This document shows positions 5,803 to 32,810 of a stretch of 37,342 bases of DNA, in pieces. The notes under the pieces are model-generated. The model did not search any database and was not told the DNA's origin. It was given only the letters and a program-made list of their open reading frames with translations. The position numbers and the translations under genes are program-made. Position 1 is the stretch's first letter; the number at the start of each line of letters is the position of its first letter. This DNA is from a bacterium (GTDB taxonomy: Bacteria > T1Sed10-126): positions 1 to 37,342 of the forward strand of contig PWHN01000062.1 of assembly GCA_003554945.1 (NCBI GenBank). Direction: 5' to 3'.

Positions 5803-6180
5803 ATCCGTAGGATTTTTACTCCCCCCGCTCTAATCCCTCTTTTCTTACAACATTGTCTCCCGGTAGACTCCAATAACCCTATTGTCCTTTGCTGCTGCAA
5901 TGTCAACTATGCAAAACCTATCGACGTCATTCCGGACAACCGAGCACCAGAGCACTCAACACCTTGAGTGCTCGGTGCTCCGGACAGATCCGGAATCTAT
6001 GGTATCATAAAAATGGATTGTCGGGTTGATACCCGGATCTAGTCCGGGCACGATGGCCTGTTGGCAATAACGGGAGTTAGGTAGTTTCTATTAACTGTGC
6101 CGTAATGGTTGTATGATTTAAAAAATCTGATATTATCTTTACCAACGTATCAAACTAAATTCCTTTGGGAGGTTTTTTTA
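5803..6180. repeat. Spacer with long palindrome and degraded repeat units
   Basis: A gap of 378 bases without a convincing gene. At 5942-5980 there is a strong hairpin: 5951-5959 pairs with 5964-5972 around a CACC loop, and after a two-base mismatch 5942-5948 pairs with 5974-5980. It is flanked by CGTCATTCCGG-type sequence like the unit at 2544. The GGGAGG ribosome binding site for the next gene is just before 6181. Confidence 0.6.
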
Positions 6181-16600: not shown

Positions 16601-18355
16601 ATGCATCCATGGGATATGAACGAAGAAGAGGCCCGTATGTTACAGGAAGAACTGGCGGAAGATTGCATTCTTGACGGCAAACCGGAGGTTGAACTGGTAG
16701 CCGGTTTGGACGTGGCATTCTATCCTGATAGCCGCATTTGTATCGCATCAGCGGTCAGTTATTCAATAACTAACCGGAGAGTCTACGAGCAGGTTGTAAA
16801 AATATCTGAACTGAATTTCCCCTATATTTCCGGTTTGCTGGCTTTCAGAGAAGCCCCACCGATGATCGAGGCGGCTATGTGCTTAAAGGCCAAACCAGAT
16901 TGTTATCTCGTTGATGGCCACGGCTATGCCCATCCGCGTCGGATGGGGCTGGCCTCTCATATTGGATTGTTTTTAGACACGCCAACTATTGGTTGTGCCA
17001 AAAATATTCTCGTTGGGGAATACGACGAACCGGCGGAACAGATTGGTTCTAATACTCAAATATGGGATGGAGAACCAGTTGGTTACGCCGTTAGATCGAT
17101 GGAAGAGGCCGCACCAATTTTTCTTTCACCGGGGCACATGATCTCTAATGAATACGTTCCCGAGGTTGTAAAACCTCTTCTGACAGAAAAATCTCGTATG
17201 CCTGAACCTCTACGGCTGGCCGATTATACCGCTGGAGTTGAGCGTTCAAAAATCGAAGGTCTTGTCAAACCTTTCACAGAACAGGAAACTGAAGTTTTTC
17301 TGCTGGGCGGCACCATCCGGGACCTGCTAACTGGCAAACAGCCTGACGACTATGATCTAATGGTTACTGATTTTGACAATCAAATCCAAAAGAATCTACA
17401 GGACGAGTTTGGCGGAAACTGGTTTACCCTGGACGAAGAAAGACAGATGTATCGCCTGCCGGGAGAAGAAGTTCAAATTGACGTCACAGTAGTAGGTGAA
17501 CAGGAAGTTGTGGATGATTTAGAAAGACGTGATTTTACCATTAACAGCATTGCTCTTGACATGGTTCGCGAGTCCTGGGTTGACCCAGTTGGGGGGCGAT
17601 CTGATGCTGAACAGCGAATACTTCGTTTAACTTCGGACGACTCACTTGATGAAGATCCCCTGCGGTTACTCAGAGCATATCGTCTTGCTGCCGATCATAA
17701 CCTGATTTTTGCAGATGAGCTTCAACAAAAAATTGGCGCCACCGTAGGAAAGCTGCAGGAGGTAAGCCGGGAACGAATAACCGAAGAACTTCTACGGCTT
17801 GCTGATCGCCCCGACTCTGCTGATTGGTTTCAGAAAATGTATGACGATGGTCTCATATCCGGCTGCTCCTTTTTTAGAAGCGAGGCAATTGCAGAGATAA
17901 GACTAATAGAGCACTGGCGGCCGGCGCTAAAAAACTATCCGACCCTGAATGTTCGGGAGTATCACGGGGGATATGAAACTATGGCCTGCTTTAAAACTGC
18001 TCGCTTAATCAGGCAGGATGAACTGGATTCCTGGCCGCTTCACCGCCAGATCAAACAACTGGCTCGCGGCAGCTACTCAGGTATGGAAGCAACAACTCCA
18101 GAGTTGCCTGTGTTGAAGTCTAACCATTTCAATTTAATGGGACGCCTGTTTGGCCGTGGCCTCTGGGAACGTTGGAAACGTGATCGGATGTTGAGAGCGA
18201 TAATTGAACTGGAAGAGTTTATTGAAAAACGTGAACAGGAGGAGCGAGAAATTGTAGAGGAGCATCGAGAGGACGGAAACATAGGTGAAGCTAAGGAACA
18301 GAGATTTGCGGAAGTCTTGCCCCAATACTGGGAGCAGACCGTAGGTAAATTGTAA
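16601..18355 (+). CDS. Endonuclease V - CCA-adding enzyme fusion
   Basis: One uninterrupted 584-aa frame with two enzymes. Residues 1-212 are endonuclease V: 'VAGLDVAF' (D37), 'FPYISGLLAFREAP' (E84, with the P-Y wedge) and 'LVDGHGYAHPRRMGLASHIG' (D105) supply the three catalytic acidic residues, and K134 follows in 'GCAK'. Residues 228-584 are a bacterial-type tRNA nucleotidyltransferase: 'LLGGTIRDLLTGKQPDDYDL' (D250, D252), 'VQIDVTV' (D294), 'RRDFTINSIALD' and 'EDPLRLLRAYRLAA'. No HD domain is seen. EndoV cuts next to inosine; the partner builds or repairs tRNA 3' ends, so a joint RNA role is plausible but inferred. ATG follows AGGTGATG. The next gene starts 9 bases downstream. Confidence 0.9.
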   Translation: MHPWDMNEEEARMLQEELAEDCILDGKPEVELVAGLDVAFYPDSRICIASAVSYSITNRRVYEQVVKISELNFPYISGLLAFREAPPMIEAAMCLKAKPDCYLVDGHGYAHPRRMGLASHIGLFLDTPTIGCAKNILVGEYDEPAEQIGSNTQIWDGEPVGYAVRSMEEAAPIFLSPGHMISNEYVPEVVKPLLTEKSRMPEPLRLADYTAGVERSKIEGLVKPFTEQETEVFLLGGTIRDLLTGKQPDDYDLMVTDFDNQIQKNLQDEFGGNWFTLDEERQMYRLPGEEVQIDVTVVGEQEVVDDLERRDFTINSIALDMVRESWVDPVGGRSDAEQRILRLTSDDSLDEDPLRLLRAYRLAADHNLIFADELQQKIGATVGKLQEVSRERITEELLRLADRPDSADWFQKMYDDGLISGCSFFRSEAIAEIRLIEHWRPALKNYPTLNVREYHGGYETMACFKTARLIRQDELDSWPLHRQIKQLARGSYSGMEATTPELPVLKSNHFNLMGRLFGRGLWERWKRDRMLRAIIELEEFIEKREQEEREIVEEHREDGNIGEAKEQRFAEVLPQYWEQTVGKL

Positions 18356-18364
18356 AACAGGCCT

Positions 18365-18700
18365 ATGAATTGGCGTTTTGTTGTTGACTGGGTGCCGGTT
18401 ATAACAATTCCAATTTTTATCACACTTTTTTTGTTTTTTTACCTTGCACTGACAAAATATGAACTGCCTCTTCCGCAATCCGGCAAACAAAATCAAACAG
18501 CCCCCGGACTTAATAAGGTCACTCTGTTTTTCCCAATCATTTTTACTTTTGTTTCCAGTTTTACGATTGTCTTGTTACCTCTTACCACGCCTGATATTGA
18601 GGCCGTCTATAATCAGTATTTACTTTTGCTTATCGCCGGTCTTATATTCTTTGTCGGTCTTTTGCTAACCAGCCAGGTGGTGACGGAAAAATGGAAGTAG
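18365..18700 (+). CDS. Small 3-TM protein in the NuoA position
   Basis: 111 aa, three hydrophobic helices (about residues 10-30, 52-72, 84-102) with a polar loop between the first two. This is the size, topology and gene position of NuoA (ND3), but the NuoA marks, the Cys in the first loop (YECG) and the FDxE in helix 2, are absent, so homology is only suggested. It overlaps the next gene by 10 bases and is 9 bases after the EndoV-CCA gene. Confidence 0.6.
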   Translation: MNWRFVVDWVPVITIPIFITLFLFFYLALTKYELPLPQSGKQNQTAPGLNKVTLFFPIIFTFVSSFTIVLLPLTTPDIEAVYNQYLLLLIAGLIFFVGLLLTSQVVTEKWK

Positions 18701-19191
18701 AAATTGCCAATTTCATCAAAAATAGACTGGAACCGAACGACCCGTTAAAGGTCATCCGGCGGGAACAAGGAAACCAACTTAAAGTAATACTGCCGGCTCA
18801 ACGGTTGAATCGTGTCTGCAGGGCGTTAAAAGATACTGAGCCGTATTATTTTCTTCATCTTAGCGATATAACGGCAGAACCATTAAACAGAAAATCTGAC
18901 AAAAGAACTCATGAGGTAATATGGCACCTCTATTCACATAAACTTAACTATAGGTTAAACCTCGCGGTAAGTTTAAAAGAAAGGAAATGCTTTCCCGACC
19001 TGTCAACTATCTGGCCATCCGCCGGCTGGCTCCAGCAGCGCTGTTTTGAATTATACGAAGCAAAATTTTCCGAAAATATCGATGAACGGCAATCTGTTTA
19101 TCCCTCCAGTTTTTCCTCTCAGTTCAAAAAATTCAACTCACAGGTTGACACAGGCGGGGAATCGGATGACCGGGTGGAGCAGATAAAATGA
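18691..19191 (+). CDS. NuoC-like (30-kDa) subunit
   Basis: 166 aa related to the 30-kDa hydrophilic subunit of complex I. The recognisable block is 'YYFLHLSDITAEP' followed by 'VIWHLYSHKLNYRLNLAVSL' and 'FPDLSTIWPSAGWLQQRCFE'. In normal NuoC this last part reads W-x-E-R-E-x-x-D, so it is diverged here, and the usual C-terminal LRRIL...HPLRKDYP is replaced by an unrelated polar tail. It overlaps the NuoD-like gene by 4 bases (ATGA). No nuoB lies before it, unlike standard order A-B-C-D. Confidence 0.75.
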   Translation: MEVEIANFIKNRLEPNDPLKVIRREQGNQLKVILPAQRLNRVCRALKDTEPYYFLHLSDITAEPLNRKSDKRTHEVIWHLYSHKLNYRLNLAVSLKERKCFPDLSTIWPSAGWLQQRCFELYEAKFSENIDERQSVYPSSFSSQFKKFNSQVDTGGESDDRVEQIK

Positions 19192-20315
19192 TTACCGCCT
19201 GGCCCACCGGTTTACGTGAAATTGATCTCCTACCGCCGGAATACCAGCCGTCCGGTTTTTATCCGGTCGGTGAGCTGGAAGTGGGGGAGACAGGCATTAG
19301 CCGATTTATTCCACGGCTTCGGCACGGAAAACAGGGAGGCAAATTTTCTATTCACCTGGTTAATTATCGACTGCAGGAGCGTCGGCTTCTATTTGCTATC
19401 GCAGTTGAAAAAATCTTAGAGTTTAAAGGACCTAACCCGCTAATCAGGATTATGCGGTGTATGGTCGCAGAGTTGTTACGTATAATAGGGCATCTTAATT
19501 GTCTCGCTCTTGCTGGCCACAGTGTAGGTGCTTTCAGGGTGGCCAGCGAAATAGGTAGAGATGCGCGATTAATACACGGTTGCTTACATGAGATGATTAC
19601 CGGGGGGAACGGTCAGAATTTTATTGTGCCAGGCGGTTTTAACGGGGACATAGATTCTTCTTTTTTTGACTCTGCCGATGAGGTTTTGACTATTTTGAAA
19701 AATCGCTTGAGCTATTATAAAAAAAATCTTATCAATGATTCATTCTTCATAGCTCGAACTCGCGGTGAAGGAGAGATTGATATCGAAACAGCCCTTGATT
19801 GGGGAGTTACGGGTCCCACTTTAAGAGCAGCCGGGGTTCGGAGAGATTTAAGAAAAGATAACCCACACAGTGCCTACGAAGAAATTAAGTTCCGTATTCC
19901 TATAGGTAAGAACGGTGACATTTACGATAGATTTCGTATTCGATTCCTGGAATTGAAACAATCAATCAACATATTCAAGCAAATAACTCGCGTTGTTTCC
20001 GGACACGATTACTCTGCTGATGATTTGCTCTTATTGTCGCCGGGAAAAATTAAGATTAATTCGCAGTCGCATTTATTTGGAAGACGCATAGTTCTTGCTG
20101 GAGAAAAATATGACACCGTGGATGAGGAACTTTACTGCTCTATGGAGTCAGCCTCTGGAGAGCTGGGCTGTTACGTCAGGGTCTTAGAAAATAATTATAT
20201 AGAGGCGCAACTTCGTGAACCGGGATTTGTAAACTTTCAAAGTTTACGGCGATTTGCCCAAAAAGTAAGACCTGAAGACCTGTCACTGCTGACCGCCAGC
20301 CTGGGGTTGTTTTGA
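19188..20315 (+). CDS. NuoD-like (49-kDa) subunit, quinone-site motif lost
   Basis: 375 aa homologous to NuoD. Strong family blocks: 'AIAVEKILEF', 'RTRGEGEIDIETALDWGVTG', 'LRAAGVRRDLRKDNPHSAYE', 'PIGKNGDIYDRF' and 'SASGELGCYV' then 'PGFVNFQSL'. The N-terminal GPxHPxxHG loop, whose His binds quinone, is absent, and no CxxC pairs are present at either end, so it is not a [NiFe]-hydrogenase large subunit. The C-terminus stops at 'LLTASLGLF', short of the usual DxVxGxxDR end. Overlaps nuoC by ATGA and the next gene starts directly after its stop. Confidence 0.88.
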   Translation: MITAWPTGLREIDLLPPEYQPSGFYPVGELEVGETGISRFIPRLRHGKQGGKFSIHLVNYRLQERRLLFAIAVEKILEFKGPNPLIRIMRCMVAELLRIIGHLNCLALAGHSVGAFRVASEIGRDARLIHGCLHEMITGGNGQNFIVPGGFNGDIDSSFFDSADEVLTILKNRLSYYKKNLINDSFFIARTRGEGEIDIETALDWGVTGPTLRAAGVRRDLRKDNPHSAYEEIKFRIPIGKNGDIYDRFRIRFLELKQSINIFKQITRVVSGHDYSADDLLLLSPGKIKINSQSHLFGRRIVLAGEKYDTVDEELYCSMESASGELGCYVRVLENNYIEAQLREPGFVNFQSLRRFAQKVRPEDLSLLTASLGLF

Positions 20316-21356
20316 TTGTATTACTGGAGTTTATGGTTGGCTATTACTTTTTTGCATACTCTTTTTTACTTTTCAATCGTAATAATTGCCGTTATTTTAT
20401 TGATTAATCTAGAGCGATACATCATTAATAGTGGTTCCACATTTACCACCCAAACTTTTTCTAACCGCGACGTCGTCTCAAAACCAACGCCATATTTTAC
20501 CGCATTCAAAGTTGCTCTACTTGCCACCTGTTTTTCGGTTCTTCCCCTGGGGGATTATAGTCTGGCTATTACAGAACTACACCCTGACCTGGTTAATTTT
20601 CAGGTGCTGGCGATTGCCTCGCCCGAGCAGGGGCTGTTGGTTCCCTTTGTCGTCGGTTTTTTTTATCTGCTTGCCAAATCAATGTCTGATTGTTTTTCAA
20701 ACAACCGGGACCGGCGATCGGTAATTTTCAACATCAGTATTGGGCTTCTATTTTTTGTTTTGTTTCTTGGATTATTTGCCACTAACTATACGACCAGTTT
20801 TCAAGAAGCAGTCACAGACCAGGCTGAACTGGGCTGGACAATCTATAATCAACCGGTTGGGGCTTTTCTCTTTCTCATCTCACTTTATATAATAATTCCA
20901 CTGCCGGGAACAATAAGTCAAAAAAACGATCTCCAGCAGACGTTCGTTCGAGGAGGGCTGATATTATTTCTTTCAGCGGTCTTTGTAAACTTGTACTTTG
21001 GAGGCTGGGTGTCACCATTTGAAAACTATAATTTTGCGCAAACCCTTTTTGACAGCCCTCTTGTCAATTCATTTCGTTCCTTAGTATGGTTTGGTCTCAA
21101 AACATTTTTGTTAATTTACTTATTATTTCAGCTTAAATTATTTCTGCCTAAATTACGATTTGACCAGCTTCTGCGAGGTATCTGGGGAGTTTTGATACCC
21201 ATCTCAGTAATTAATTATTTTATTACCGTCATTAGCTCAATCTATATTAAACCGGGGAGTAGTCAGTGGATATTTATACAGTCCGGCTGGCTAATAATTT
21301 TTTTAATTATTTTCTGGCGTCTGACCCCCCCAAAACAGGTTCATACGACGGAATAA
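20316..21356 (+). CDS. NuoH-like (ND1) membrane subunit, diverged
   Basis: 346 aa with about eight hydrophobic helices. Family traces are 'YNQPVGAFLFLISLY', 'LYFGGWVSPFENYN', 'WFGLKTFLLIYLLF' and 'LPKLRFDQLLRGIWGVLIPI'. The acidic quinone-chamber loop of NuoH (AExNRxPFDLPEAE) is replaced by 'IIIPLPGTISQKNDLQ', and the GWxSNxKY stretch is also lost. NuoH normally joins the membrane arm to NuoB/D. Start taken as TTG at 20316, right after the nuoD stop; the ribosome binding site is weak, so the start is uncertain. Confidence 0.82.
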   Translation: MYYWSLWLAITFLHTLFYFSIVIIAVILLINLERYIINSGSTFTTQTFSNRDVVSKPTPYFTAFKVALLATCFSVLPLGDYSLAITELHPDLVNFQVLAIASPEQGLLVPFVVGFFYLLAKSMSDCFSNNRDRRSVIFNISIGLLFFVLFLGLFATNYTTSFQEAVTDQAELGWTIYNQPVGAFLFLISLYIIIPLPGTISQKNDLQQTFVRGGLILFLSAVFVNLYFGGWVSPFENYNFAQTLFDSPLVNSFRSLVWFGLKTFLLIYLLFQLKLFLPKLRFDQLLRGIWGVLIPISVINYFITVISSIYIKPGSSQWIFIQSGWLIIFLIIFWRLTPPKQVHTTE

Positions 21357-21379
21357 AATAAAAGGAGATTAGCAAGTCT

Positions 21380-21892
21380 ATGGAGCATTTCATCTTCTTT
21401 TTTATGGCTTTGTTCGCTATTGCAAATGCCATCGCGCTGATTTTTGTACGTCGAGTTATAAACGGGATATGGATTTTTAGCTTTATCTGCTCGTTACTGG
21501 CCGCCATGATTTTCCTGCTTGGCGAGACATTTTTGGCTCTTTTTTATCTTGGTTTTTTTGGCCTTAATTCGCTGGTTATCTTCTATTTGTTCTTGCTTGC
21601 TGCCCCCGATGGAATAGAGAAGGAAAGCGCCAGCCGTCGTCTGAAAAATTATTTGCACGGTTTAGTTATATGGCTTCCACTGCTGCTGATTACGTTAGTT
21701 ATTTTTGTACCGTTCGCCGAAGTAACACTGTTGCCTGGAGATTTTTCTCTGGAGCTGCTCGGCGGCGAGCCAATCCATTACCTGGGCAAGGTAATCTCTA
21801 CGGGTTATCCGTTTGTCTTTACTGGTATAATGGTATTTGTGTTAACTTCGTTTGTCGGCGGAATCATTCTAAATAGTTTACAGGAGACATAA
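21380..21892 (+). CDS. NuoJ-like (ND6) membrane subunit
   Basis: 170 aa with five hydrophobic helices. 'FLALFYLGFFGLNSLVIFYLF' (about residues 52-72) matches the NuoJ TM3 region that carries the pi-bulge, with the usual YAGA changed to FFGL. The gene is preceded by AAAGGAGA and starts with ATG at 21380, 23 bases after the previous stop. No nuoI lies between the H and J genes, where it sits in standard operons. Confidence 0.78.
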   Translation: MEHFIFFFMALFAIANAIALIFVRRVINGIWIFSFICSLLAAMIFLLGETFLALFYLGFFGLNSLVIFYLFLLAAPDGIEKESASRRLKNYLHGLVIWLPLLLITLVIFVPFAEVTLLPGDFSLELLGGEPIHYLGKVISTGYPFVFTGIMVFVLTSFVGGIILNSLQET

Positions 21893-21893
21893 G

Positions 21894-22187
21894 ATGCTAA
21901 TCTATTATTTGCTTCTTGGGCTGATTATTTTTTGTCTCGGGATATACGGTTTAATTAGCATAAGAAATCCCTGGTACCGACCGCAATTTATCCTTCTCAT
22001 GCAGTCAGCGGCACTGTTTATTGTGCTTGCGCTCGGTCATTTTCTTAGCCTATCCAACTACCAGGTATTTTTTTTCTTTTTAGCTTTGATTTTTGTAAGT
22101 CAGTTTCTCCTCCTGACACTCCTTACTTTTTGGCGGCAGAAAAATATTCAAGAAGGTGAAGAGGATAGGGGAACTTTAAAATGGTAA
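21894..22187 (+). CDS. NuoK-like (ND4L) membrane subunit without the two Glu
   Basis: 97 aa, three helices, the usual size of NuoK. The pattern 'FCLGIYGLISIRNPW' matches the first helix and loop. The two membrane glutamates of NuoK (E36 and E72 in E. coli) fall on L34 and about V68/S69 here, so both are lost. It starts 1 base after nuoJ and overlaps the nuoL-like gene by 7 bases. Confidence 0.75.
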   Translation: MLIYYLLLGLIIFCLGIYGLISIRNPWYRPQFILLMQSAALFIVLALGHFLSLSNYQVFFFFLALIFVSQFLLLTLLTFWRQKNIQEGEEDRGTLKW

Positions 22188-23983
22188 ATACAAGCACGAC
22201 AGCACTTTTTTTGGGCATTATATTTTTCTTATATCTGGGGGCGATCTTTGGTCGTTTCCAGCTTTGGCGGCGGAAGAAAAAAGGGTTAAAGGAAACCATA
22301 TTTCCGATAATTTACTTTCTTGCCGCCGTTGCTTCCATCTGGCTGCAGATAACTTTTCAGCACCCGGTTGTCTGGGAGCTTTACGAATTTTTTAGTGCTG
22401 GACAAATCAATTTCAGACTTACTCTGTATTTAGACGAACTTGCCGTCTTATTTGTTCTTGTTATGACATGTTTACGGTTTTTAGTCTTTCTTTTTCCCCG
22501 TGAAAAAAATCGGCATACCGACCATATTTTAATCGACGCCTTGCTAATTTCCGGTCTATTTTTTTTTCTGGCGGGAGATTTAATTTTATTGCTTGTCGGA
22601 TGGTCTTTAATTTCACTGGTTGTTCTATTCCTTAATCGCAAAAATGTTGAGCAACTGGCGATTGATAATCGAATACGTAACCTCTTTTTGTTAAATAGAT
22701 TAAGCGACTTTATCCTGATGACCGGTACAGTATTATTTTTCATTGAAACCGAATCAACCGTTCCTGTATTGCCTGGAAATAGACCGGTTGAATTCAGTTC
22801 CTTAATCCCGCTCTTTTTCGGCGCTGCTGCTGTAATTCGCACTGGTCTTTTTCCTTTTACCAACTGGTTTAAAACGGTTTTTGAACCAGAAATTTCATTA
22901 AATGCTTTTATAAGCTCTATTTTACCGCTACCCGCCGGACTTTACCTGATTGCTCGCTACCGTTTTTTGTTCGAACAATCTCTCCTGGCAATAAGTTTGC
23001 TTTTATTTTTTATCGTTATTACTCTGTTATACGCAGTTCTGGAGAGTTTTTTTAGTGAAAAATTAAATCAAATTATTTTTTATCTTTCCACCGCTCAAAT
23101 ATCCATCAGCCTGATTTTCACTCTTTTTGGTTATTATCGAGCAGCGATCTTTTATTTTATTCTACAAACTACCGGAAGATTGCTTGCCTTAGCCGGTGGA
23201 ACGATGTTGACTAATGGCAAAGAGAAGAGGGGGGACTTTCTGGGCCAGGGACAGATATCGCCTTTCGCCGGCTGGTTAGTCTTTTTGGGTCTGTCCAGCG
23301 TAGCCGGTCTACCTCCCCTTGGTGGGTTCTGGGGCAATTACGCTCTGCTTGCCTCTCTGGCAGAACAACCCGGTGGATTTTTACTATTTCCGTTTATTTA
23401 TCTGTTCTTTATTCTGTTTACTTTTTCAGCAGCTCGCGCTGCTTTTGGAATCTTTATGACAAAACCAGAAACAACCAGCCGGGTGAAAGAAAAAAAACTT
23501 TATGATTCAATAGCTGCCTTTATTTTTGCTTTCTTTGTTTTGTTTGGCGGGCTGGCCGCCTACTTGCCGTTTTTCGAGCAGATTAGCATCTTACCGGCAG
23601 CTGGACGAGCTGGACATTTGACGACCTATCTTTTGTTGTTTGTCGTAACATTCTTTACACCGGCACTATTATACAAACGTCTAAGGTATCGAATCTCTCC
23701 TGGGAAAGATTTTGTTCTGGAAATACTGCCGTTTCAAATCCAAGAGGAGAGTCTGGCGCAGACGGCTTCTTCGGGTTGTAAATTATTTTTTAAGAAAAGC
23801 TCTAATCTTGTTAAATTCATTGAAAAAAATTTATTGACACCACTCTGGATGTTGCCTAATTTTATAATTAAGCTTTCTACAGCTTTGATTCGATTTTTCC
23901 ATACCGGGAAAACGGTTCATTACCTCAATTATACGCTTTTGACGTTAGTTGTGATTTTTTTCTTGCTCTATTTTCTTGGATAA
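22181..23983 (+). CDS. NuoL-like (ND5) antiporter-type subunit
   Basis: 600 aa, about 16 helices. Clear family features: the Mrp/NuoL core, 'GLSSVAGLPPLGGFWGNY', and the C-terminal lateral amphipathic helix followed by a last TM ('HYLNYTLLTLVVIFFLLYF'). Aligning by eye with E. coli NuoL, the core charged residues are exchanged: E144 to S142, K229 to R220, H254 to S245, H334/H338 to Y325/Q329, K399 to N386. This is the most distal pump subunit in complex I. ATG overlaps nuoK. Confidence 0.88.
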   Translation: MVNTSTTALFLGIIFFLYLGAIFGRFQLWRRKKKGLKETIFPIIYFLAAVASIWLQITFQHPVVWELYEFFSAGQINFRLTLYLDELAVLFVLVMTCLRFLVFLFPREKNRHTDHILIDALLISGLFFFLAGDLILLLVGWSLISLVVLFLNRKNVEQLAIDNRIRNLFLLNRLSDFILMTGTVLFFIETESTVPVLPGNRPVEFSSLIPLFFGAAAVIRTGLFPFTNWFKTVFEPEISLNAFISSILPLPAGLYLIARYRFLFEQSLLAISLLLFFIVITLLYAVLESFFSEKLNQIIFYLSTAQISISLIFTLFGYYRAAIFYFILQTTGRLLALAGGTMLTNGKEKRGDFLGQGQISPFAGWLVFLGLSSVAGLPPLGGFWGNYALLASLAEQPGGFLLFPFIYLFFILFTFSAARAAFGIFMTKPETTSRVKEKKLYDSIAAFIFAFFVLFGGLAAYLPFFEQISILPAAGRAGHLTTYLLLFVVTFFTPALLYKRLRYRISPGKDFVLEILPFQIQEESLAQTASSGCKLFFKKSSNLVKFIEKNLLTPLWMLPNFIIKLSTALIRFFHTGKTVHYLNYTLLTLVVIFFLLYFLG

Positions 23984-24000
23984 GCCTCATCTAAAAAATC

Positions 24001-24140
24001 TTCCCCCTTGAAAGGGGAAGAGTTAGCCGGATTTCATCATTCCGGCCCCCGAGCCGGAATCCATCTTGAATTTCAAGGGGGAGTTTCCTCCAAAAAGCCC
24101 TCTCCCCGGAGGAAGAGGGCCAGGGGGAGGGGGAAAAATA
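24001..24140. repeat. Palindromic repeat element inside the complex-I-like operon
   Basis: The 220-base gap between the nuoL- and nuoM-like genes contains a composite element: CTTCCCCCTTGAAA (ending near 24013) pairs with TTTCAAGGGGGAG (near 24071-24083), enclosing an ATTCCGG/CCGGAAT hairpin (24039-24060). A second G/C-run unit follows (24084-24140). The same units occur at 2544, 2580, 11985 and 34650. The trailing GAGTAGTTA...AATTTTT is shared with the sequence after the nuoN-like gene near 27170. Confidence 0.75.
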
Positions 24141-24203
24141 AGGTGAGTAGTTATTAATTTTTTACCTGGAAATTTTGCTGTTAAGAGGTGTGCCGTATAA
24201 CCG

Positions 24204-25712
24204 ATGCTCTTATTGTTTCTAATCCTATTACTCATAATTATTTCAGTGGGCAGTTATTACAGCCAGCGAGCTGACTCAATTCTAATCAAAAAACTCACTG
24301 CCCCAGTTACTTTCACAGCGTTAACAACGGTTTTGGTCCTGCTGCTTGTATTAATCTGGCAGATAAACGGAGGTTTTGATGGTCCGTTTATCAATAATTT
24401 GCTCTTCGAATTCTCTGTCTCGCTGCCGGCGGTCGGACCAGGTGGACAACTTCATTTTGAAGCTACCTTTTTGGGAATATTGCTTGCAAGTTTCGTCACC
24501 TTATCCATGGTTCTCTTCCTGCTTGTATCCCTCGGAGAAAAACAAACAGAAGAATTTGTTAATTATCCGCTTCTACTGCTATTAACCGCAAGCTACTTAG
24601 GTCTTTTCTTGAGTCATAATTTGATACTTTTTTTGATTTTTTGGGAACTTGTTCTTGTGCTCACTTATTTTGCCGGCAGCGGTAGAGGCGGCTGGAGGCA
24701 GCAAAATATATTTGCAGAACCAGCTGTCTTCAAGCTCATCTGCAGTTCATTCTTTTTGATCTTCATAATTTTTGTTTATCATCATACTGTTGACCTTACG
24801 GGAGAGTCGAACTTATCTTTGGATTTCCTCTCCCAAATTAGCCTGGCCTCCAACAGTTCTAACCTGCTCTTCTGGTCGGTTTTATTTTCCTTTTTACCGG
24901 TCAGTCTCATATTTCCATTTCATTCCCTGTTAACAAGGGAGAGAAAACATAATTTTCTCAAGCGGCTATCTTTCACTATCCTTTTGCCTTTGTCCACAAT
25001 ATATATACTGAATCAGTTTTTGCTCCCCGTCGCCGGCCGCTCCAGTTGGTTTTTAGTTACTATAGCTTCTTTCGGTACTGTTTACGGTGCAGTGCTTGCT
25101 TTGCGCTCAAAAAATTACAGTTCCTCAATTGAATGGGTTGCTCTGACCGGTTATAGCGGAGCTTTCGCAGCACTGTTTATTTATAAACCTACAGCTGCTG
25201 CAGCTTCTATATTACTGGCCCTGGCGGTTTCTTTAGTGCTATTAGTAATGATTTTGTTGGATCATCTCATTCAGATTAAAAAAGAGGATAACAATCAAGT
25301 CGGACTACAGTATTTATTCACTGCCGATCTACATTTATGTGTTCTTTTTGGACTGATTTTATTCAGTATGACCGGTCTGGTAGGTTCGGCTTTTTTTCCG
25401 GTATACTTGATGATTTTAGGTGAACTGGTTACGGTTGGCTGGCTGCCTGTTCTTTTCTTGCTGACGGCCCAGTTTATTTTAACGGTTTATTGTTTCAAAC
25501 TCTTAGTCGAACATTTTCCTCTGAATTCAACTATTAGTCTGCCCCTGCGCGGTATCAAGCCTGCTTTATACATAGCGCTTGTCCTCTTGATACTGGCCGG
25601 TCTAATACCTGGACGTTTCTTGAATCCGCTGGTAGAAGATGTCAGAGAATATTTGGAGCTGGAAAAAATGGAGCAATATTCCCAACAGATAAAAATCTAC
25701 GAGGAGAGCTAA
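24204..25712 (+). CDS. NuoM-like (ND4) antiporter-type subunit
   Basis: 502 aa, about 14 helices. The conserved Glu of TM5 is kept ('LILFLIFWELVLVLTYF', E148). By eye, the TM7 Lys (K234 in E. coli, KMPVVPLH) falls on V233 in 'VSLIFPFH', the TM8 Lys (K265) on P262, and the TM12 Glu (E407) on a Tyr in 'FFPVYLMILG'. The start ATG at 24204 has GAGGTG about 13 bases upstream, rather far. It follows a repeat element, so translation is less tightly coupled here than elsewhere in the operon. Confidence 0.85.
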   Translation: MLLLFLILLLIIISVGSYYSQRADSILIKKLTAPVTFTALTTVLVLLLVLIWQINGGFDGPFINNLLFEFSVSLPAVGPGGQLHFEATFLGILLASFVTLSMVLFLLVSLGEKQTEEFVNYPLLLLLTASYLGLFLSHNLILFLIFWELVLVLTYFAGSGRGGWRQQNIFAEPAVFKLICSSFFLIFIIFVYHHTVDLTGESNLSLDFLSQISLASNSSNLLFWSVLFSFLPVSLIFPFHSLLTRERKHNFLKRLSFTILLPLSTIYILNQFLLPVAGRSSWFLVTIASFGTVYGAVLALRSKNYSSSIEWVALTGYSGAFAALFIYKPTAAAASILLALAVSLVLLVMILLDHLIQIKKEDNNQVGLQYLFTADLHLCVLFGLILFSMTGLVGSAFFPVYLMILGELVTVGWLPVLFLLTAQFILTVYCFKLLVEHFPLNSTISLPLRGIKPALYIALVLLILAGLIPGRFLNPLVEDVREYLELEKMEQYSQQIKIYEES

Positions 25713-25715
25713 AAG

Positions 25716-27101
25716 ATGGAACTGTTTTTTCCAATTCCCGGCTTAATTCTGCTATTTGCTGCGGTTATTTGTCTCTTTTGGGCTCAGTTGTTCCCAAACC
25801 GACGTGGGCTGGCTCTAATATGTCTTTTTACTCTTCTGGCTCTTGCAGTAGTTAGCAGTAGGGTGGGGGGGATTGGTGGCTTAAGTTTTGATCGCTTATC
25901 GAATTTCGGTTTTTCCCTGGTCATCATTTTCCAGATATTTATTCTGGGAATCTTGAAAATATTTATGGATCAAACAAATTCAAAAGATCTGTTTGTCTAT
26001 TTCTTTTTTGTAACGACAACCTTTGGTCTCTACCTTTCAGTTCATTCTTACAACCTTCTCGCGTTTTTTGTTGGTCTGGAACTAACACTTATTTCACTTC
26101 TATTCCTGGGTCTAAGTTCACAGAAAAAGCGAACCATTGAAGCTGGTTATCGATTTATGTTTCACAATTTGGTGGGAACCTTTTTTCTGGTGCTGGTGAT
26201 TCTCTATTTTTATTCTCATTTTGAAACCCTGCAATTGCCCGCTCAATCAATTTCTCTCTCCTCGGCCCAAACAATCCCAATCATATTACTATTCCTGGGT
26301 ATAGCCTATAAAATCGGGCTGGGGCCATTTTACTTCTGGCATCTGGATTGGTTAACAGCCGCCCCCATGCCGATCACAGTAATCATGTCGACTTCTTACA
26401 GAATTGCTCTCTTATTTTTTCTATTCCGTCTTTTCCGGATTTACTTGCCTCAAGTTTCACCACAATGGTTAGTCGTCGTAGCAGGATTATCGTTGTTCAG
26501 CCTAACCGTACCACTACTACATGCGCTCGGGCAAACCAATTTCAAACGAGGATTTAGTATTTTCTTGTTTGGGCAGCTCGGGCTGTTTTTTCTTCCTCTT
26601 GCCCTGCAGCCTGTTGAGGCCCAACCTGTGGTTTTATTTATTTTATTGACCCTGTTAGCCGGGCTGGTTGGCTTGATTGCTCTTGTTGCTCTTTATAACC
26701 CGGGCGACAGAAAAGAATTACACGAAATTGATCCCGGTAGCTCAAAAGAACTCTACCACAACAGGTTCTCCTGGGCTTTCCTCTGGTTGAGTCTTGGATT
26801 ACTTCCTCCCACGGTGGGTTTTGTGATTAAAATAATTTTGGCAGACGTATTTGTAATTCTGCCTCCAATTTTCTATTTTTTATTATTTCTATCAGGCTAT
26901 TTACTACTTGTTGGTTTTTGTATGAAATCAGCTATAAATTGTCCGGTTGCAATGAAAACTGCAACAACCGAAGGCGGCCCCTCATTTAACGGCAAGATAT
27001 TTCTAAAGCTCAGCCTGTCGGGTTCTATATTTTTAACGGCGGGACTTCTTTTTACTTTCGAACCAGTATTCGATTATCTTCGTTATTTACTGATATATTA
27101 A
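25716..27101 (+). CDS. NuoN-like (ND2) antiporter-type subunit, key residues kept
   Basis: 461 aa, about 14 helices. It keeps the functional core: E122 in 'LLAFFVGLELTLISLLFLG' (E. coli E133), K199 in 'GIAYKIGLGPFYFWHLDW' (K217), R229 for K247, and K372 in 'GLLPPTVGFVIKIILA' (K395). So this subunit may still move ions. It starts 3 bases after the nuoM-like stop and is the last gene of the run. Confidence 0.88.
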   Translation: MELFFPIPGLILLFAAVICLFWAQLFPNRRGLALICLFTLLALAVVSSRVGGIGGLSFDRLSNFGFSLVIIFQIFILGILKIFMDQTNSKDLFVYFFFVTTTFGLYLSVHSYNLLAFFVGLELTLISLLFLGLSSQKKRTIEAGYRFMFHNLVGTFFLVLVILYFYSHFETLQLPAQSISLSSAQTIPIILLFLGIAYKIGLGPFYFWHLDWLTAAPMPITVIMSTSYRIALLFFLFRLFRIYLPQVSPQWLVVVAGLSLFSLTVPLLHALGQTNFKRGFSIFLFGQLGLFFLPLALQPVEAQPVVLFILLTLLAGLVGLIALVALYNPGDRKELHEIDPGSSKELYHNRFSWAFLWLSLGLLPPTVGFVIKIILADVFVILPPIFYFLLFLSGYLLLVGFCMKSAINCPVAMKTATTEGGPSFNGKIFLKLSLSGSIFLTAGLLFTFEPVFDYLRYLLIY

Positions 27102-27500: not shown

Positions 27501-28541
27501 ATGCAAACAAAAAGTTTGCGAGGCCGTGATTTTCTCACTCTTCGTGATTTCACTGAAGAGGAGATTAACACTTTTCTTGACGTAGGATTTGACCTGAAGC
27601 GACGTTTTGCAATGGGAGAAAAACATTCCCATCTGTTAGAGGACAAGTCGCTTTACATGGTCTTTTACAACCAGTCCCTGAGGACTCGGAATTCTTTTGA
27701 ATCGGGGATGACTCAGCTTGGAGGACACGCTCATTTTCTGGCGTCCGACAAAATTTATACGCCGGCCGTCGAGGGTGAAGAAAAAGCGTATTCCACTGAG
27801 CGCGTATCTGACGTGGCTCGTGTGCTGGAACGATACGGTGACGCTATCGCTATCCGAATGTATGGCCCACCAACTGGCTGGGTTTACGGTAAAGCTAACA
27901 GCTACATGGAAGAATTTGCTCGCTGGACAGACATTCCGATTCTCAACATGGAATGTGACAAGTATCACCCCTGCCAGGCCCTGACTGACATAATGACTGT
28001 CAAAGAGAAGCTGGGCCAGTTGAAAAACAAAAAGTTTGTTATGTCCTGGGCTTACTCTCCATCCTACGAGAAACCGCTCAGTGTCCCTCAGTCCGCCATT
28101 ATTGCGGCAACCAAAATGGGAATGGACGTAGTCCAAGCTCAACCTAAAGGGTTTGAATTGGACGAGGAGATTACCGATGCCTGTGCAGGCTATGCCGAGA
28201 AGTCCGGCGGTAGCTTCGAGGTAAGTTATGACATGGAGGAAGCGTTTGAAGACGCTGATGTTGTTTATCCGAAATGCTGGGGCTCCAAAGCGGAGTTTGA
28301 AAACGTCGCCCAGGGCGATGATTCCGGCATGAAAAAGCTTTTTGAGGAAAACAAGGACTGGAAGTGCGATCAAGAAATGCTCGACATCGCAAAGGACGAC
28401 GCTCTTTACATGCACTGCTTGCCCGCTGACCGCGGCTGGGAGGTCTCCAACGAAGTTATGGACGGTCCTCAGTCCGTCATATTTGACGAGGCTGAAAACC
28501 GAATGCACTCCCAAAAAGCTGTCATGAGCCTGGTGATGTAA
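27501..28541 (+). CDS. YgeW-type knotted carbamoyltransferase (first copy)
   Basis: Aspartate/ornithine carbamoyltransferase superfamily, knotted branch (with YgeW, N-acetyl- and N-succinylornithine carbamoyltransferases). The carbamoyl-phosphate loop is S59-L-R-T-R63 in 'FYNQSLRTRNSFE', and 'YHPCQALTDIM' is at 155-165. 'SWAYSPSYEKPLSVPQSAII' and 'DADVVYPKCWGS' closely resemble YgeW. The C-terminal 'MHCLPADRGWEV' keeps the HCLP motif. YgeW works in anaerobic purine/ureido-amino-acid breakdown in other bacteria; the substrate here is unknown. 346 aa. AGGAGG precedes the ATG. The next paralogue starts 1 base later. Confidence 0.85.
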   Translation: MQTKSLRGRDFLTLRDFTEEEINTFLDVGFDLKRRFAMGEKHSHLLEDKSLYMVFYNQSLRTRNSFESGMTQLGGHAHFLASDKIYTPAVEGEEKAYSTERVSDVARVLERYGDAIAIRMYGPPTGWVYGKANSYMEEFARWTDIPILNMECDKYHPCQALTDIMTVKEKLGQLKNKKFVMSWAYSPSYEKPLSVPQSAIIAATKMGMDVVQAQPKGFELDEEITDACAGYAEKSGGSFEVSYDMEEAFEDADVVYPKCWGSKAEFENVAQGDDSGMKKLFEENKDWKCDQEMLDIAKDDALYMHCLPADRGWEVSNEVMDGPQSVIFDEAENRMHSQKAVMSLVM

Positions 28542-28542
28542 G

Positions 28543-29580
28543 ATGGCTTTAAGAGAAAGCAGTCTTAACGGTAAATCCATGATTACTACCCAGGAATTAT
28601 CCCGGGATGAAATTATGGAGATTATTGAACTGGCCGAGGATATGCAGGAAAATCGTTTTGCTGATAAATACAGCAAAGTCCTCGACCAGCGTAGTTTCCT
28701 TATGTTCTTTTACAACCCCTCGGTTCGCACACGCCAATCCTTTGAGATTGCCGCTACCGAGTTGGGCGGACATGGTCTTTACATCGAACCGGGCAGTATG
28801 CGCCTGCAGCAGCTCGACAAACCGCCTGAAGAACAGGGCGGCGAGACGATTGAAGACGTTGCCGGCGTTATGAACCGCTACGGGGCCGGTGTGGGCATTC
28901 GAATGCTCGAAGATAAAATTGACCGCTATGGCCGTGGTGACGAGGTATTGCGCGAGTATGATAAATATCTCGACAAACCTCTTGTCAGTTTTGCGCACGA
29001 TCGTTTTCATCCCTGTCAGGGCCTGGCCGATGTAATGGGTTATCGCAAACACGTTGGCAAAGATCTTGAAGATGTGACTATTGCTCACGTCTGGGGTCAC
29101 GGTGCTCTTGCTCGCTCGCATTGTTCCGTCCAGGAGAGTATGCTTATCTCCTCACGACTTGGAATGAATGTGCGAGTGGCTCACCCGGAAGGCTACGACC
29201 TCGACGAAGAGGTTGTGGAGTGGACCAAGGAGAACTGCAAAGAAAACGGTGGTAGTTTTGACATTGACCACGACCCGGTAGATGTCTACGAAGATGCTGA
29301 CATCGTCTACTCCCGTAACTGGATGAGCCGTGACGCTTATCAAGACGGTGAGTTTAAGAAGGAAGAGGAGATTGAAAAAGCACTTAAATACACCGACTGG
29401 ATCTGTGATGAGGAGAAGATGAAGCTTACTGACGACGGACTTTTCTCCCACCCGATGCCGGTTGACAGACGCCATGAGGCTACTGATGAAGTTGCCTCCG
29501 GCCCGCGTTCAATCATCCTCGACATTGCTGAGAACAGGCTTCACGTCCAAAAAGCCTACATGGCTCTTTCTATGGGCTAA
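28543..29580 (+). CDS. Knotted carbamoyltransferase paralogue with altered HCLP motif
   Basis: 345 aa, a diverged paralogue of the preceding gene. The carbamoyl-phosphate loop S60-V-R-T-R64 ('FFYNPSVRTRQSFE') and 'FHPCQGLADVM' (155-165) are intact, so carbamoyl phosphate binding is likely. The amine-side motif HCLP is changed to HPMP ('SHPMPVDRRHEAT'), and 'AHVWGHGALARSHCSVQ' replaces the YgeW knot-region sequence, so the second substrate probably differs. The two genes are one base apart and end in a shared strong terminator. Function unknown. Confidence 0.82.
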   Translation: MALRESSLNGKSMITTQELSRDEIMEIIELAEDMQENRFADKYSKVLDQRSFLMFFYNPSVRTRQSFEIAATELGGHGLYIEPGSMRLQQLDKPPEEQGGETIEDVAGVMNRYGAGVGIRMLEDKIDRYGRGDEVLREYDKYLDKPLVSFAHDRFHPCQGLADVMGYRKHVGKDLEDVTIAHVWGHGALARSHCSVQESMLISSRLGMNVRVAHPEGYDLDEEVVEWTKENCKENGGSFDIDHDPVDVYEDADIVYSRNWMSRDAYQDGEFKKEEEIEKALKYTDWICDEEKMKLTDDGLFSHPMPVDRRHEATDEVASGPRSIILDIAENRLHVQKAYMALSMG

Positions 29581-29613
29581 ACCTGTTCCAGGTTATGCAG
29601 ATTTGATTAATTA

Positions 29614-29646
29614 ACCGGTCCGTGCTCTTCGCACGGACCGGTTTTT
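29614..29646 (+). terminator. Rho-independent terminator after the carbamoyltransferase pair
   Basis: A perfect 12-bp GC-rich stem (29614-29625 with 29631-29642), loop TCTTC, followed by TTTT. It separates the two carbamoyltransferases from the carbamate kinase unit. Confidence 0.92.
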
Positions 29647-29761
29647 ATTAATAAACCTATTGTTTATACTTTTCTGTGAAGTAAAGTTATAGTTTGATTT
29701 CAAAATTGAGTTTGTTTTTGTTCTGTACAAATGAATACATTAAATCCAAGGAGGCAATACA

Positions 29762-30706
29762 ATGCCTACAGCAGTCGTTGCAGTTGGAGGAAATTCTTTG
29801 ATCCCCGAGAAAGGGAAGGAAAGTGTTCCTGATCAGTATTCCGCCGTGGTCGCAACAGCCAAACACATCACCGGAATGATTGAAAAAGGTTGGGACGTAG
29901 TCGTAACCCACGGAAATGGTCCCCAGGTTGGTTTTATCCTGCTGCGGGCTGAACTGGCTAAAAAACAAGCAGGCCTGCATGAAGTCCCGCTCGATTCTTG
30001 TGTCGCTGACACCCAGGGCGCTATTGGCTACACTTTTCAGCAGGTACTAAAAAATGAATACAATCGCCGCGGCATCGACAAGAACGCCGTTACCGTAGTT
30101 ACCCGTGTTCTGGTCGATAAAGACGACCCCGCCTTTAGTAATCCCTCAAAACCTATTGGCCCCTTTATGGACGAAGAAGAGGCGCGCCAGCACGAAGAGG
30201 AGGACGGCTGGGATGTTGTAGAGGACGCCGGCCGGGGTTACCGCCGTGTTGTCCCGTCGCCCGCTCCTTCTGAAATTATTGAGGAGGAATCTATAAAGGC
30301 TCTTGTTGCTCGAGGAGATACTGTTATTGGTGTTGGTGGCGGTGGGATTCCCGTCTACGAACGTGATGATGGGATTATTGCCGGCATTGAAGCTGTTATT
30401 GACAAAGACGCCGCTTCTGCGGTTCTCGCTCAAAACATTAACGCTGATCTTTTCCTTATTTCAACTGCCGTTGATCAGGTCTGCCTTAATTTTGGTGAAC
30501 CTGACGAAGAAGCTCTCGATGAAATGACTGTTTCTGAAGCCAAGCAGTACATTGACGAAGGACACTTTGCTCCCGGTAGTATGAAACCAAAAGTAGAGGC
30601 TGTTGTCGATTACCTGGAGGGCGGCGGTAAAGAAGCTATCATTACTTCGCCCGCTAAGCTTGAAGAGGCGCTTGACGGTAACGCCGGTACTTCGGTTAAG
30701 GTTTAA
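29762..30706 (+). CDS. arcC: Carbamate kinase
   Basis: Transfers phosphate from carbamoyl phosphate to ADP, giving ATP, CO2 and ammonia; the energy-harvesting step of arginine, citrulline and ureide fermentation. Seen: 'VVAVGGNSLIPEKGKESV', 'VVVTHGNGPQVGF', 'RRVVPSPAPSEIIEEE', 'VIGVGGGGIPVYERDD' and 'VIDKDAASAVLA'. 314 aa, normal. ATG at 29762 has AAGGAGG upstream. It starts a second transcription unit and is followed 5 bases later by the PLP enzyme. No arginine deiminase gene is present. Confidence 0.95.
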   Translation: MPTAVVAVGGNSLIPEKGKESVPDQYSAVVATAKHITGMIEKGWDVVVTHGNGPQVGFILLRAELAKKQAGLHEVPLDSCVADTQGAIGYTFQQVLKNEYNRRGIDKNAVTVVTRVLVDKDDPAFSNPSKPIGPFMDEEEARQHEEEDGWDVVEDAGRGYRRVVPSPAPSEIIEEESIKALVARGDTVIGVGGGGIPVYERDDGIIAGIEAVIDKDAASAVLAQNINADLFLISTAVDQVCLNFGEPDEEALDEMTVSEAKQYIDEGHFAPGSMKPKVEAVVDYLEGGGKEAIITSPAKLEEALDGNAGTSVKV

Positions 30707-30711
30707 ATTCC

Positions 30712-31905
30712 ATGACCAACTATCACATAGGTTTTAGTTGTCTGGTCTGCGGCACCGAACATGCTGCTGATTATGACGGATACGTCTGTAAGGAATGCGA
30801 AGGTAAGCTTGACGCTGATTACGATTATCATGCAATGTCGGACGAATTTTCTGTTGACTCCCTTAAGTCTAATCCTGACCGGACTGTCTGGCGCTATGCG
30901 CCGGCCTTTCCGTTCTCCGATGTTGCCAACGTACCTAGGTTGTTCATGGGAATTACTCCCATCTACCGCAATCGTGATCTGGAAGCTAAAACTGGCGTAA
31001 ACGAAGTCTATCTGAAGGATGACTCCCGGCTTCCTTCCGCTTCTTTCAAAGACCGCGCCAGCAGCGTTGTTATGACTGTGGCAATTGAAAAAGGTATCGA
31101 TAAAGTGGCCTGTGCTTCAACCGGAAATGCCGGCTGTTCATGGGCCTGTATGGGAGCCGCTTGCGGTATGCCGGTTATTATCTTTGTGCCCGCCTCGGCC
31201 CCCAAAGCCAAAATTGCTCAGCTTGGCGTTTATGGCGCTGATGTCCGTCAGGTCGACGGAACCTATGATGACGCCTTTCAGCTCTGTGCTGAAGAATGCG
31301 AGGAACATGGTTATTTTAACCGCAACACCGGTTTTAATCCCTTTACTCGCGAAGGTAAAAAATCAGTCTCTTTCGAAATCTGGGAACAGCTTGGTTTTAA
31401 AGCTCCCGGGTCGGTTTTTGTTCCTGTTGGCGACGGCAACATTATCAGCGGCGTCTGGAAGGGTTTTCGAGATCTTAAACAGCTTGGTTTAATTGAAGAA
31501 CTTCCCGCTATTTATGCCGTCCAGAGTGACGCATCCGCCGCTATTGCCCGTACAATTAGAAAAATCCAGAGCGGTGACGGTGATGCTGATAATATCCAGT
31601 TGGAAACTGTCTCGGCTAATACGCGGGCCGACTCTATTGCTGTCGACTCTCCGAGTGATGGAGTTGCCGCAGTGAAAGCCGTTATTGAAACTGGTGGCGA
31701 CGCTGTTACGGTTTCCGATGATGATATTTTGGATACGATTCCGGAACTGGCTTCCAGTACCGGGATTTTTGCTGAACCTGCCGGAGTAACAAGTATTACC
31801 GGCTTGAAAGCTCACAGTGATTCAGATGCAGAAATACCGGGACCGGCTGTCTGCCTGGTCACCGGAAACGGACTTAAAGATGTGGAGGCGGTTCTTGAAC
31901 GATGA
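30712..31905 (+). CDS. Threonine-synthase-like PLP enzyme with N-terminal zinc ribbon
   Basis: Fold-type II PLP enzyme, 397 aa. An N-terminal CxxC...CxxC ribbon (C10, C13, C26, C29) precedes the catalytic domain. The PLP lysine is K113 in 'LPSASFKDRASSVV'; 'CASTGNAGCSWACMGAACG' and 'VPVGDGNIISGVWKG' bind the cofactor phosphate. It would be called threonine synthase by homology. Its position between carbamate kinase and ornithine carbamoyltransferase, with no hom or thrB nearby, suggests instead a beta-elimination or replacement on a diamino acid, in the manner of YgeX; this is inference. It overlaps the next gene by 4 bases (ATGA). Confidence 0.8.
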   Translation: MTNYHIGFSCLVCGTEHAADYDGYVCKECEGKLDADYDYHAMSDEFSVDSLKSNPDRTVWRYAPAFPFSDVANVPRLFMGITPIYRNRDLEAKTGVNEVYLKDDSRLPSASFKDRASSVVMTVAIEKGIDKVACASTGNAGCSWACMGAACGMPVIIFVPASAPKAKIAQLGVYGADVRQVDGTYDDAFQLCAEECEEHGYFNRNTGFNPFTREGKKSVSFEIWEQLGFKAPGSVFVPVGDGNIISGVWKGFRDLKQLGLIEELPAIYAVQSDASAAIARTIRKIQSGDGDADNIQLETVSANTRADSIAVDSPSDGVAAVKAVIETGGDAVTVSDDDILDTIPELASSTGIFAEPAGVTSITGLKAHSDSDAEIPGPAVCLVTGNGLKDVEAVLER

Positions 31906-32810
31906 GTAAACGTGATTTTGTTATTCTTACTGACTATGACAAACAGACCCTGAGCTCGATTGTAGATCGGGCAATTGAAATGAAGGGTGGAGCTAAACCT
32001 CACCGTGGCGAGGACAAAGCTCTGGCTATGATTTTCACCAAACCTTCCACCAGGACCAATGTTTCTTTCCGTATGGCAATGCACAGGCTTGGTGGAACGT
32101 CAATGTATCTGGGCCAGGAGACACTTCAACTGTCACGCGGTGAAACAATCGGCGATACCGGCAAAACGCTGGCTCGCTACGTCGATATTATTATGATTCG
32201 CACCTTCGATCACCAGGACGTGGTGGATCTTGCGGCCGGCTCTTCTGTTCCGGTCATTAACGGCTTGACCGATCTCTGTCACCCCTGTCAGGCGATGGGC
32301 GACGTAATGACACTAAAGGAATCGCTGGACGGTTCCCTGGAAGATGCCAAGCTAACGTATATTGGCGACGGAAATAACGTCTGCCACTCGCTTATTCACG
32401 CAGCTGGGATTTTTGGTTTTTCTTTGACCGTCTCAGCACCTGAACAGTTTGCCCCTGACTCCGACGTGCTTAAACCGATGCAGGATCGTAATTCCAACAT
32501 TGTGGTAGATAGTGATCCGGTTTCCGCTGTCCAGGGAGCTGACGCTATCTATACTGATGTCTGGGTGAGTATGGGTGATGAGGATGAAGCAGACAAGCGT
32601 TATGAAATTTTTGGTGACTATCAGGTTAATTCTGAGCTTCTGTCTCACGCCAAGGACTCCTGCATTGTTATGCACTGCCTGCCGGCTAATAGGGGAGAGG
32701 AGCTAACCGACGCTGTGATGGACGGTGAACAGTCACGCGTCTTCGAACAGGCTGAAAACCGTATGCACAGCCAGCAGGCTATCCTCGAATATCTGCTTGG
32801 CACAATTTAA
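31902..32810 (+). CDS. Ornithine carbamoyltransferase
   Basis: Converts ornithine plus carbamoyl phosphate to citrulline, or the reverse when coupled to carbamate kinase. 302 aa. The carbamoyl-phosphate loop is S49-T-R-T-N53 ('KPSTRTNVSF'; the last residue is usually Arg). 'DLCHPCQAMGDV' (125-136), the ornithine-binding 'DVWVSMGDEDE' and 'MHCLPANRGEEL' are typical of OTCase. Translationally coupled to the PLP enzyme and next to carbamate kinase, which favours a catabolic (ArcB-like) role; without arcA I leave the symbol blank. Confidence 0.88.
   Translation: MSKRDFVILTDYDKQTLSSIVDRAIEMKGGAKPHRGEDKALAMIFTKPSTRTNVSFRMAMHRLGGTSMYLGQETLQLSRGETIGDTGKTLARYVDIIMIRTFDHQDVVDLAAGSSVPVINGLTDLCHPCQAMGDVMTLKESLDGSLEDAKLTYIGDGNNVCHSLIHAAGIFGFSLTVSAPEQFAPDSDVLKPMQDRNSNIVVDSDPVSAVQGADAIYTDVWVSMGDEDEADKRYEIFGDYQVNSELLSHAKDSCIVMHCLPANRGEELTDAVMDGEQSRVFEQAENRMHSQQAILEYLLGTI

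Follow-up and report, generated by a model that had tools for sequence, protein, structure and literature searches.

Can a complex I whose operon holds none of the genes for iron-sulfur or flavin subunits still be a redox enzyme, with the missing parts encoded elsewhere in the genome, or has it become a membrane machine of another kind? This question is raised by an operon found in a 37,342-nucleotide stretch of bacterial DNA (contig PWHN01000062.1 of assembly GCA_003554945.1, phylum T1Sed10-126), hereafter referred to as the window. The window is a whole contig of a 2.2 Mb draft genome composed of 121 contigs (93.5% complete).

Gene content and genomic setting of the operon

In silico analysis of window positions 18365-27101 distinguished nine open reading frames, arranged in the canonical nuo order A-C-D-H-J-K-L-M-N:

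18365..18700, + strand: small membrane protein in the NuoA position, 111 aa (assigned by position and three hydrophobic stretches)
18691..19191, + strand: NuoC-like protein, 166 aa (PF00329, 55 bits)
19188..20315, + strand: NuoD-like protein, 375 aa (PF00346, 170 bits)
20316..21356, + strand: NuoH-like protein, 346 aa, TTG start codon (PF00146, 54 bits, C-terminal third)
21357-21379: H/J gap of 23 bp, the position of nuoI in canonical operons
21380..21892, + strand: NuoJ-like protein, 170 aa (PF00499, 20.5 bits, below the cut-off; NCBIfam NuoJ, 21.7 bits)
21894..22187, + strand: NuoK-like protein, 97 aa (NCBIfam NuoK, 28.3 bits)
22181..23983, + strand: NuoL-like protein, 600 aa (PF00361, 66.6 bits; PRK06590, 84.9 bits)
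24204..25712, + strand: NuoM-like protein, 502 aa (TIGR01972, 41 bits)
25716..27101, + strand: NuoN-like protein, 461 aa (TIGR01770, 88.9 bits)

The C, D, H, J, L and N proteins were recognised by Pfam or NCBIfam models, and K and M weakly by NCBIfam; PF00361 exceeded the Pfam cut-off for both the NuoL-like and the NuoN-like protein, and the A-position protein matched no Pfam or NCBIfam family. Eight of the products are thus homologues of complex I subunits (C, D, H, J, K, L, M and N) encoded in nuo order, with A identified by position only. Genes for B, E, F, G and I are absent, and these are exactly the subunits of complex I that carry Fe-S clusters or flavin. At the place where nuoB would lie in a canonical operon, A and C overlap by 10 bp (18691-18700); this overlap and the 23-bp H/J gap leave no room for a B or an I gene. 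The initial annotation, which had described nine packed genes with no nuoB between A and C, no nuoI between H and J, and no nuoE, nuoF or nuoG, is borne out in all of these points, and the operon consists entirely of genes for subunits without Fe-S clusters or flavin.

Counterparts of all nine genes, ordered alike and again without B and I, were found in the middle of a contig (C147) in the only other genome of the phylum that was compared (G001, hereafter the relative), a 91% complete draft genome representing another genus of the same family. In both genomes the operon is preceded by a gene for an endonuclease V/poly(A)-polymerase fusion protein and followed by genes for two carbamoyltransferases and a carbamate kinase. 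The identity between the two genomes is 21-36% for the nine proteins vs. 59-84% for the proteins encoded by the neighbouring genes. Since the same genes occupy the same syntenic place in another genus, the arrangement is not an accident of assembly, and the initial annotation's reservation that the B-less, I-less order might be unique to one assembly has been removed.

The window copy of the fusion gene (16601-18355, same strand), in which endonuclease V is joined to a poly(A) polymerase/CCA-adding head, lies 9 bp upstream of the operon, and that of the relative (4631-6385 of its locus) 15 bp upstream of the nine genes. Downstream, window positions 27501-32810 carry two tandem carbamoyltransferase-like genes, a carbamate kinase gene, a threonine-synthase-like gene and a third carbamoyltransferase-like gene, and this gene order is largely conserved in the relative. 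The L/M gap of the window (23984-24203; 220 bp) is a GC-rich, repeat-like stretch containing no gene, and the matching gap in the relative is 33 bp long. An Rfam search of the window gave zero matches.

Residues of the quinone site and the proton path

The proteins of both genomes were compared, residue by residue, with as many as 40 canonical subunits, taken from loci of other genomes and from E. coli; the NuoM and NuoN reference sets, kept free of NuoL paralogues, comprised seven and six sequences, respectively. In the NuoD-like proteins, His220, His224 and Asp325 (E. coli NuoCD numbering) are replaced in both genomes (in the two, His224 by Ser and Lys, and Asp325 by Ser and Leu), while position Tyr273 is not alignable in the window and is Tyr in the relative. 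In E. coli NuoCD, the head group of the quinone is held by His224 and Tyr273, the former being paired with Asp325 (PMC8138167). The window NuoD-like protein is also devoid of the [NiFe] CxxC motifs. The NuoH-like proteins of both genomes lack the loop following TMH1 and the TMH5-6 loop (E..R.PFD..EAE.EL..GY..EY), and the conserved ERE..D..G motif of NuoC is replaced in both. The canonical E51 of NuoA occurs in neither A-position protein, and D79/E81 are absent from that of the relative (weak alignment).

Three features of respiratory complex I (14- or 11-subunit), i.e., (i) NuoB with cluster N2, (ii) NuoI (8Fe-8S), and (iii) the quinone site of NuoCD together with the TMH5-6 loop of NuoH, were therefore not found in the nine-gene complex. 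The residue losses in C, D and H are stronger evidence than the absence of genes alone. Electron flow through the complex is not supported, because there is neither a cluster-bearing subunit nor a recognisable quinone site.

The predicted (AlphaFold) structure of the NuoD-like protein (pLDDT 76, pTM 0.81) matched complex I 49 kDa subunits in Foldseek (E 6e-21), and a low-confidence model of the NuoH-like protein (pLDDT 66, poor over residues 40-105) matched NuoH/ND1 (E 6e-6); canonical homologues served as the alignment for both models, which biases them towards the canonical fold. Judged by its model, the NuoD-like protein keeps the NuoD fold.

The role in pumping of the Glu residue in TM5 and the Lys residues in TM7, TM8 and TM12 of the antiporter-like subunits has been reviewed (PMC7613608). 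In the NuoK-like proteins both conserved Glu residues are lost (E36 changed to Leu or Phe, E72 to Gln in both genomes). The NuoL-like proteins of both genomes carry Ser in place of Glu144, Tyr in place of His334 and Asn in place of Lys399, and Lys229 and His254 are replaced too. The NuoM-like protein has lost Lys234 (TM7), Lys265 (TM8) and Glu407 (TM12), with the TM5 Glu144 kept in the window only. The proton-path Glu, Lys and His residues of K, L, M and N are mostly kept in N alone: the NuoN-like proteins of the two genomes, only 28% identical, both retain the TM5 Glu133 and TM7 Lys217 (Glu122 and Lys199 of the window protein) and both have Arg in place of the TM8 Lys247 (window Arg229), whereas the TM12 Lys395 survives only in the window. 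Nor is there support for ordinary proton pumping through L and M. As most of the proton-path residues of L, M and K are gone, the complex cannot be regarded as just a proton pump with a driving force other than electron transfer.

The reading that we favour, with a probability of about 0.58, is that of a repurposed complex I, i.e., a non-redox membrane complex whose remaining ion path most probably lies in NuoN. NuoN is proposed as the working part since it is the only antiporter-like subunit left with a plausible half-channel; this putative role is read from three residues, with the TM12 Lys missing in the relative. In an ancestor of the phylum without quinone respiration, the five subunits with Fe-S clusters or flavin (B, E, F, G and I) would have disappeared, leaving the membrane arm (A, H, J, K, L, M and N) with the Fe-S-free peripheral subunits C and D as a cytoplasmic cap. 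The quinone chamber (the His and Asp residues of NuoD and the NuoH loops) and the Glu and Lys residues of NuoK, NuoL and NuoM would then have been replaced, and NuoN, which kept its TM5 Glu/TM7 Lys pair and has Arg at TM8, may be the working half-channel of an ion-handling complex. In such a complex the C-D-H cap might gate or couple NuoN, and the distal L and M and the small subunits J and K would be mainly structural. We infer from the sequences that the nine products assemble into one complex and that ions move through it; what drives or regulates this complex, and its biochemical function, are put forward in the same conditional sense.

Selection, NuoB supply and alternative readings

All 18 frames (nine genes in two genomes) are open. 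The identity between the two genomes at codon position 2 is 0.52-0.57 (0.26-0.33 expected from shuffled codons), and at codon position 3 it is 27-34%, close to the expectation of 25-29%. Judged by these codon comparisons, the nine genes are shown to be under purifying selection, although their synonymous sites are saturated. The constraint is weaker than that on ordinary genes, as indicated by their fast evolution relative to the neighbouring genes. Both lineages have departed from the canonical residue at 247 columns whose conservation among canonical subunits is 90% or higher, and at 60 of these they have the same replacement (about 19 expected from summed per-subunit shuffles), a result that concerns the age and retention of the changes and not their mechanism, because kinship makes a shared ancestral state visible. 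The shared replacements include His to Tyr and Lys399 to Asn in L, Glu72 to Gln in K, and Lys247 to Arg in N. This excess of shared new residues favours an ancestral change of function over decay.

These results bear directly on the view that the operon is a relic, i.e., a complex I functionless since the loss of respiration and slowly decaying in both lineages. The high divergence of the proteins and the loss of nearly every catalytic residue would be expected of a relic, but intact frames for all nine genes in both genera in spite of saturation at synonymous sites, the signal of purifying selection, the number of shared replacements and the fully kept gene order would not, and we consider this explanation unlikely. 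It is rather improbable that the complex lacks an ion path altogether and serves only as a structural scaffold in the membrane or as an assembly platform: such a function would agree with the loss of ionisable residues from L, M and K and with the missing TM12 Lys in NuoN of the relative, but speaking against it is the retention of the NuoN Glu (TM5), Lys (TM7) and Arg (TM8) in both genomes at only 28% identity.

NuoB and NuoI were both sought in the whole genomes. A search with PF01058 identified one NuoB in each of the two genomes, located inside a complete and separate Mbh-type [NiFe] hydrogenase operon; a profile built from 21 complex-I NuoBs, applied at E<=10, retrieved only these two hydrogenase NuoBs (95 bits) vs. 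230-241 bits in two control genomes. No protein of either genome matched NuoI (TIGR01971) over the cut-off, and the best match (66-68 bits) is a 4Fe-4S protein of the hydrogenase/Mrp cluster. The NuoB and NuoI searches suggested by the initial annotation yielded only genes of the hydrogenase/Mrp operon. In the window genome, the hydrogenase operon (contig C104:78000-97612) encodes NuoB, its own NuoC-like protein, a large [NiFe] subunit with RxCGxC and DPCxxC motifs, a NuoH-like protein and an Mrp set. The relative contains a matching hydrogenase cluster, which reaches the contig end just after nuoB. At the C104 locus the Mrp antiporter set is complete, and there are additional genes for electron input (FAD/NAD-binding and 4Fe-4S proteins).

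The complex could be a redox enzyme assembled in trans if the hydrogenase, or another donor that was not recognised, lent its NuoB and NuoI-like proteins to dock on C and D. With exactly one NuoB and one best NuoI-like protein per genome, sharing is formally possible, but the operon to which both genes belong supplies C-, D- and H-type subunits of its own. The nine-gene complex has lost the conserved motifs of C and D as well as the quinone residues, so that no acceptor site can be recognised in it. We regard this explanation as improbable, and supply of NuoB/NuoI in trans was rejected on the ground that the sole NuoB of each genome belongs to the hydrogenase operon. The non-redox option raised by the initial annotation gains support from the fact that the hydrogenase owns the only NuoB/NuoI-like genes and from the loss of the redox-site residues of C, D and H. 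An assembly or binning artefact, or a recent deletion in one genome, is hardly credible: the window does represent just one of the 121 contigs of a draft genome, but the same arrangement lies mid-contig in a second genus, between the same neighbours and at 21-36% identity, and an assembly gap at the operon was rejected given the closed junctions and the syntenic relative.

Other redox genes were also surveyed. Matches to the NuoF type (PF01512) included, as identified from their sequences, RnfC-like proteins and one NuoF-like gene that is flanked by frames of the NuoE-like and NuoG-like/[FeFe]-hydrogenase types. No UbiA/MenA-type enzyme was found over the Pfam cut-off in the window genome, where a sub-threshold UbiA-like match occurs, and the relative has one UbiA domain over the cut-off, in a 556-aa frame. 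It is plausible that the host is a quinone-free anaerobe.

Comparison with known systems and search for further relatives

The Mrp cation/proton antiporter is assembled from NuoL/M/N-, K- and J-like subunits and is not known to have NuoC, NuoD or NuoH. In contrast, the nine-gene operon has C, D and H in full nuo order and contains no MrpE-, MrpF- or MrpG-like genes, and so differs from an Mrp system (MrpA-G without C, D and H), which is described as a non-redox relative of complex I (PMC7419157). The window genome possesses a separate Mrp set beside the hydrogenase, apart from the operon. The Mbh-type [NiFe] hydrogenase with an Mrp module is a member of the complex I superfamily and has C-, D-, H- and antiporter-like subunits, as does the window operon; however, it has NuoB and [NiFe]-binding Cys motifs, and the window NuoD-like protein is accompanied by neither. 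The hallmarks of [NiFe] group 4 (Mbh/Ech/Hyf), namely the N- and C-terminal Cys motifs and a NuoB-like subunit, are present in the C104 operon and missing from the window.

Among the closest known systems is the 11-subunit complex I of Desulfitobacterium hafniense, which has the same gene order once B and I are removed and is devoid of the N module (E, F and G). That enzyme keeps NuoB and NuoI, with the same Q-module function proposed (PMC11238625), whereas the nine-gene operon lacks both genes as well as the Q-site residues. DAB2 (DabA/DabB) is another non-redox machine, whose cytoplasmic protein is driven by a membrane subunit resembling NuoL (PMC13144422). DAB2 is a two-subunit CO2-hydration complex which, unlike the nine-gene operon, is without C, D and H; its DabB2 keeps the proton-transfer residues of NuoL, unlike the window NuoL-like protein, and no DabA was recognised in the operon.

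There is still no agreement on how complex I couples electron transfer to the movement of ions. A membrane arm with a C/D cap, but without B, I and the quinone site, would constitute a natural deletion experiment on this question, and would bridge the non-redox relatives without C, D and H (Mrp, DAB) and the redox members, all of which keep NuoB. We give about even odds to the broader proposal that the whole complex I architecture (membrane arm and C/D cap) has given up redox chemistry for good and makes up a new class of machine, driven by ions or gating them, in which NuoN still works and the domain that once reduced quinone acts as a gate or carries out some other reaction.

A search of the open-access literature found no B-less complex I, and thus no published precedent for the nine-gene complex. 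The NuoDs retrieved in a contig scan with the window NuoD-like protein came from Chloroflexota, Nitrospirota and other groups and were 26-36% identical to it; 38 of the 42 loci contain a NuoB-like frame. A NuoH profile run over 386 genomes scored above 600 bits in the window genome and the relative only, the next match being 72 bits; among ten next-best NuoH loci examined, eight had the full canonical loop motif and two gave no motif match. A quick NuoD tree, used here for this grouping only, unites the proteins of the window and the relative (SH-aLRT 99), both of which sit on very long branches (3.35 and 3.7). Several proteins of the window genome give the impression of being acidic, as in halophiles.
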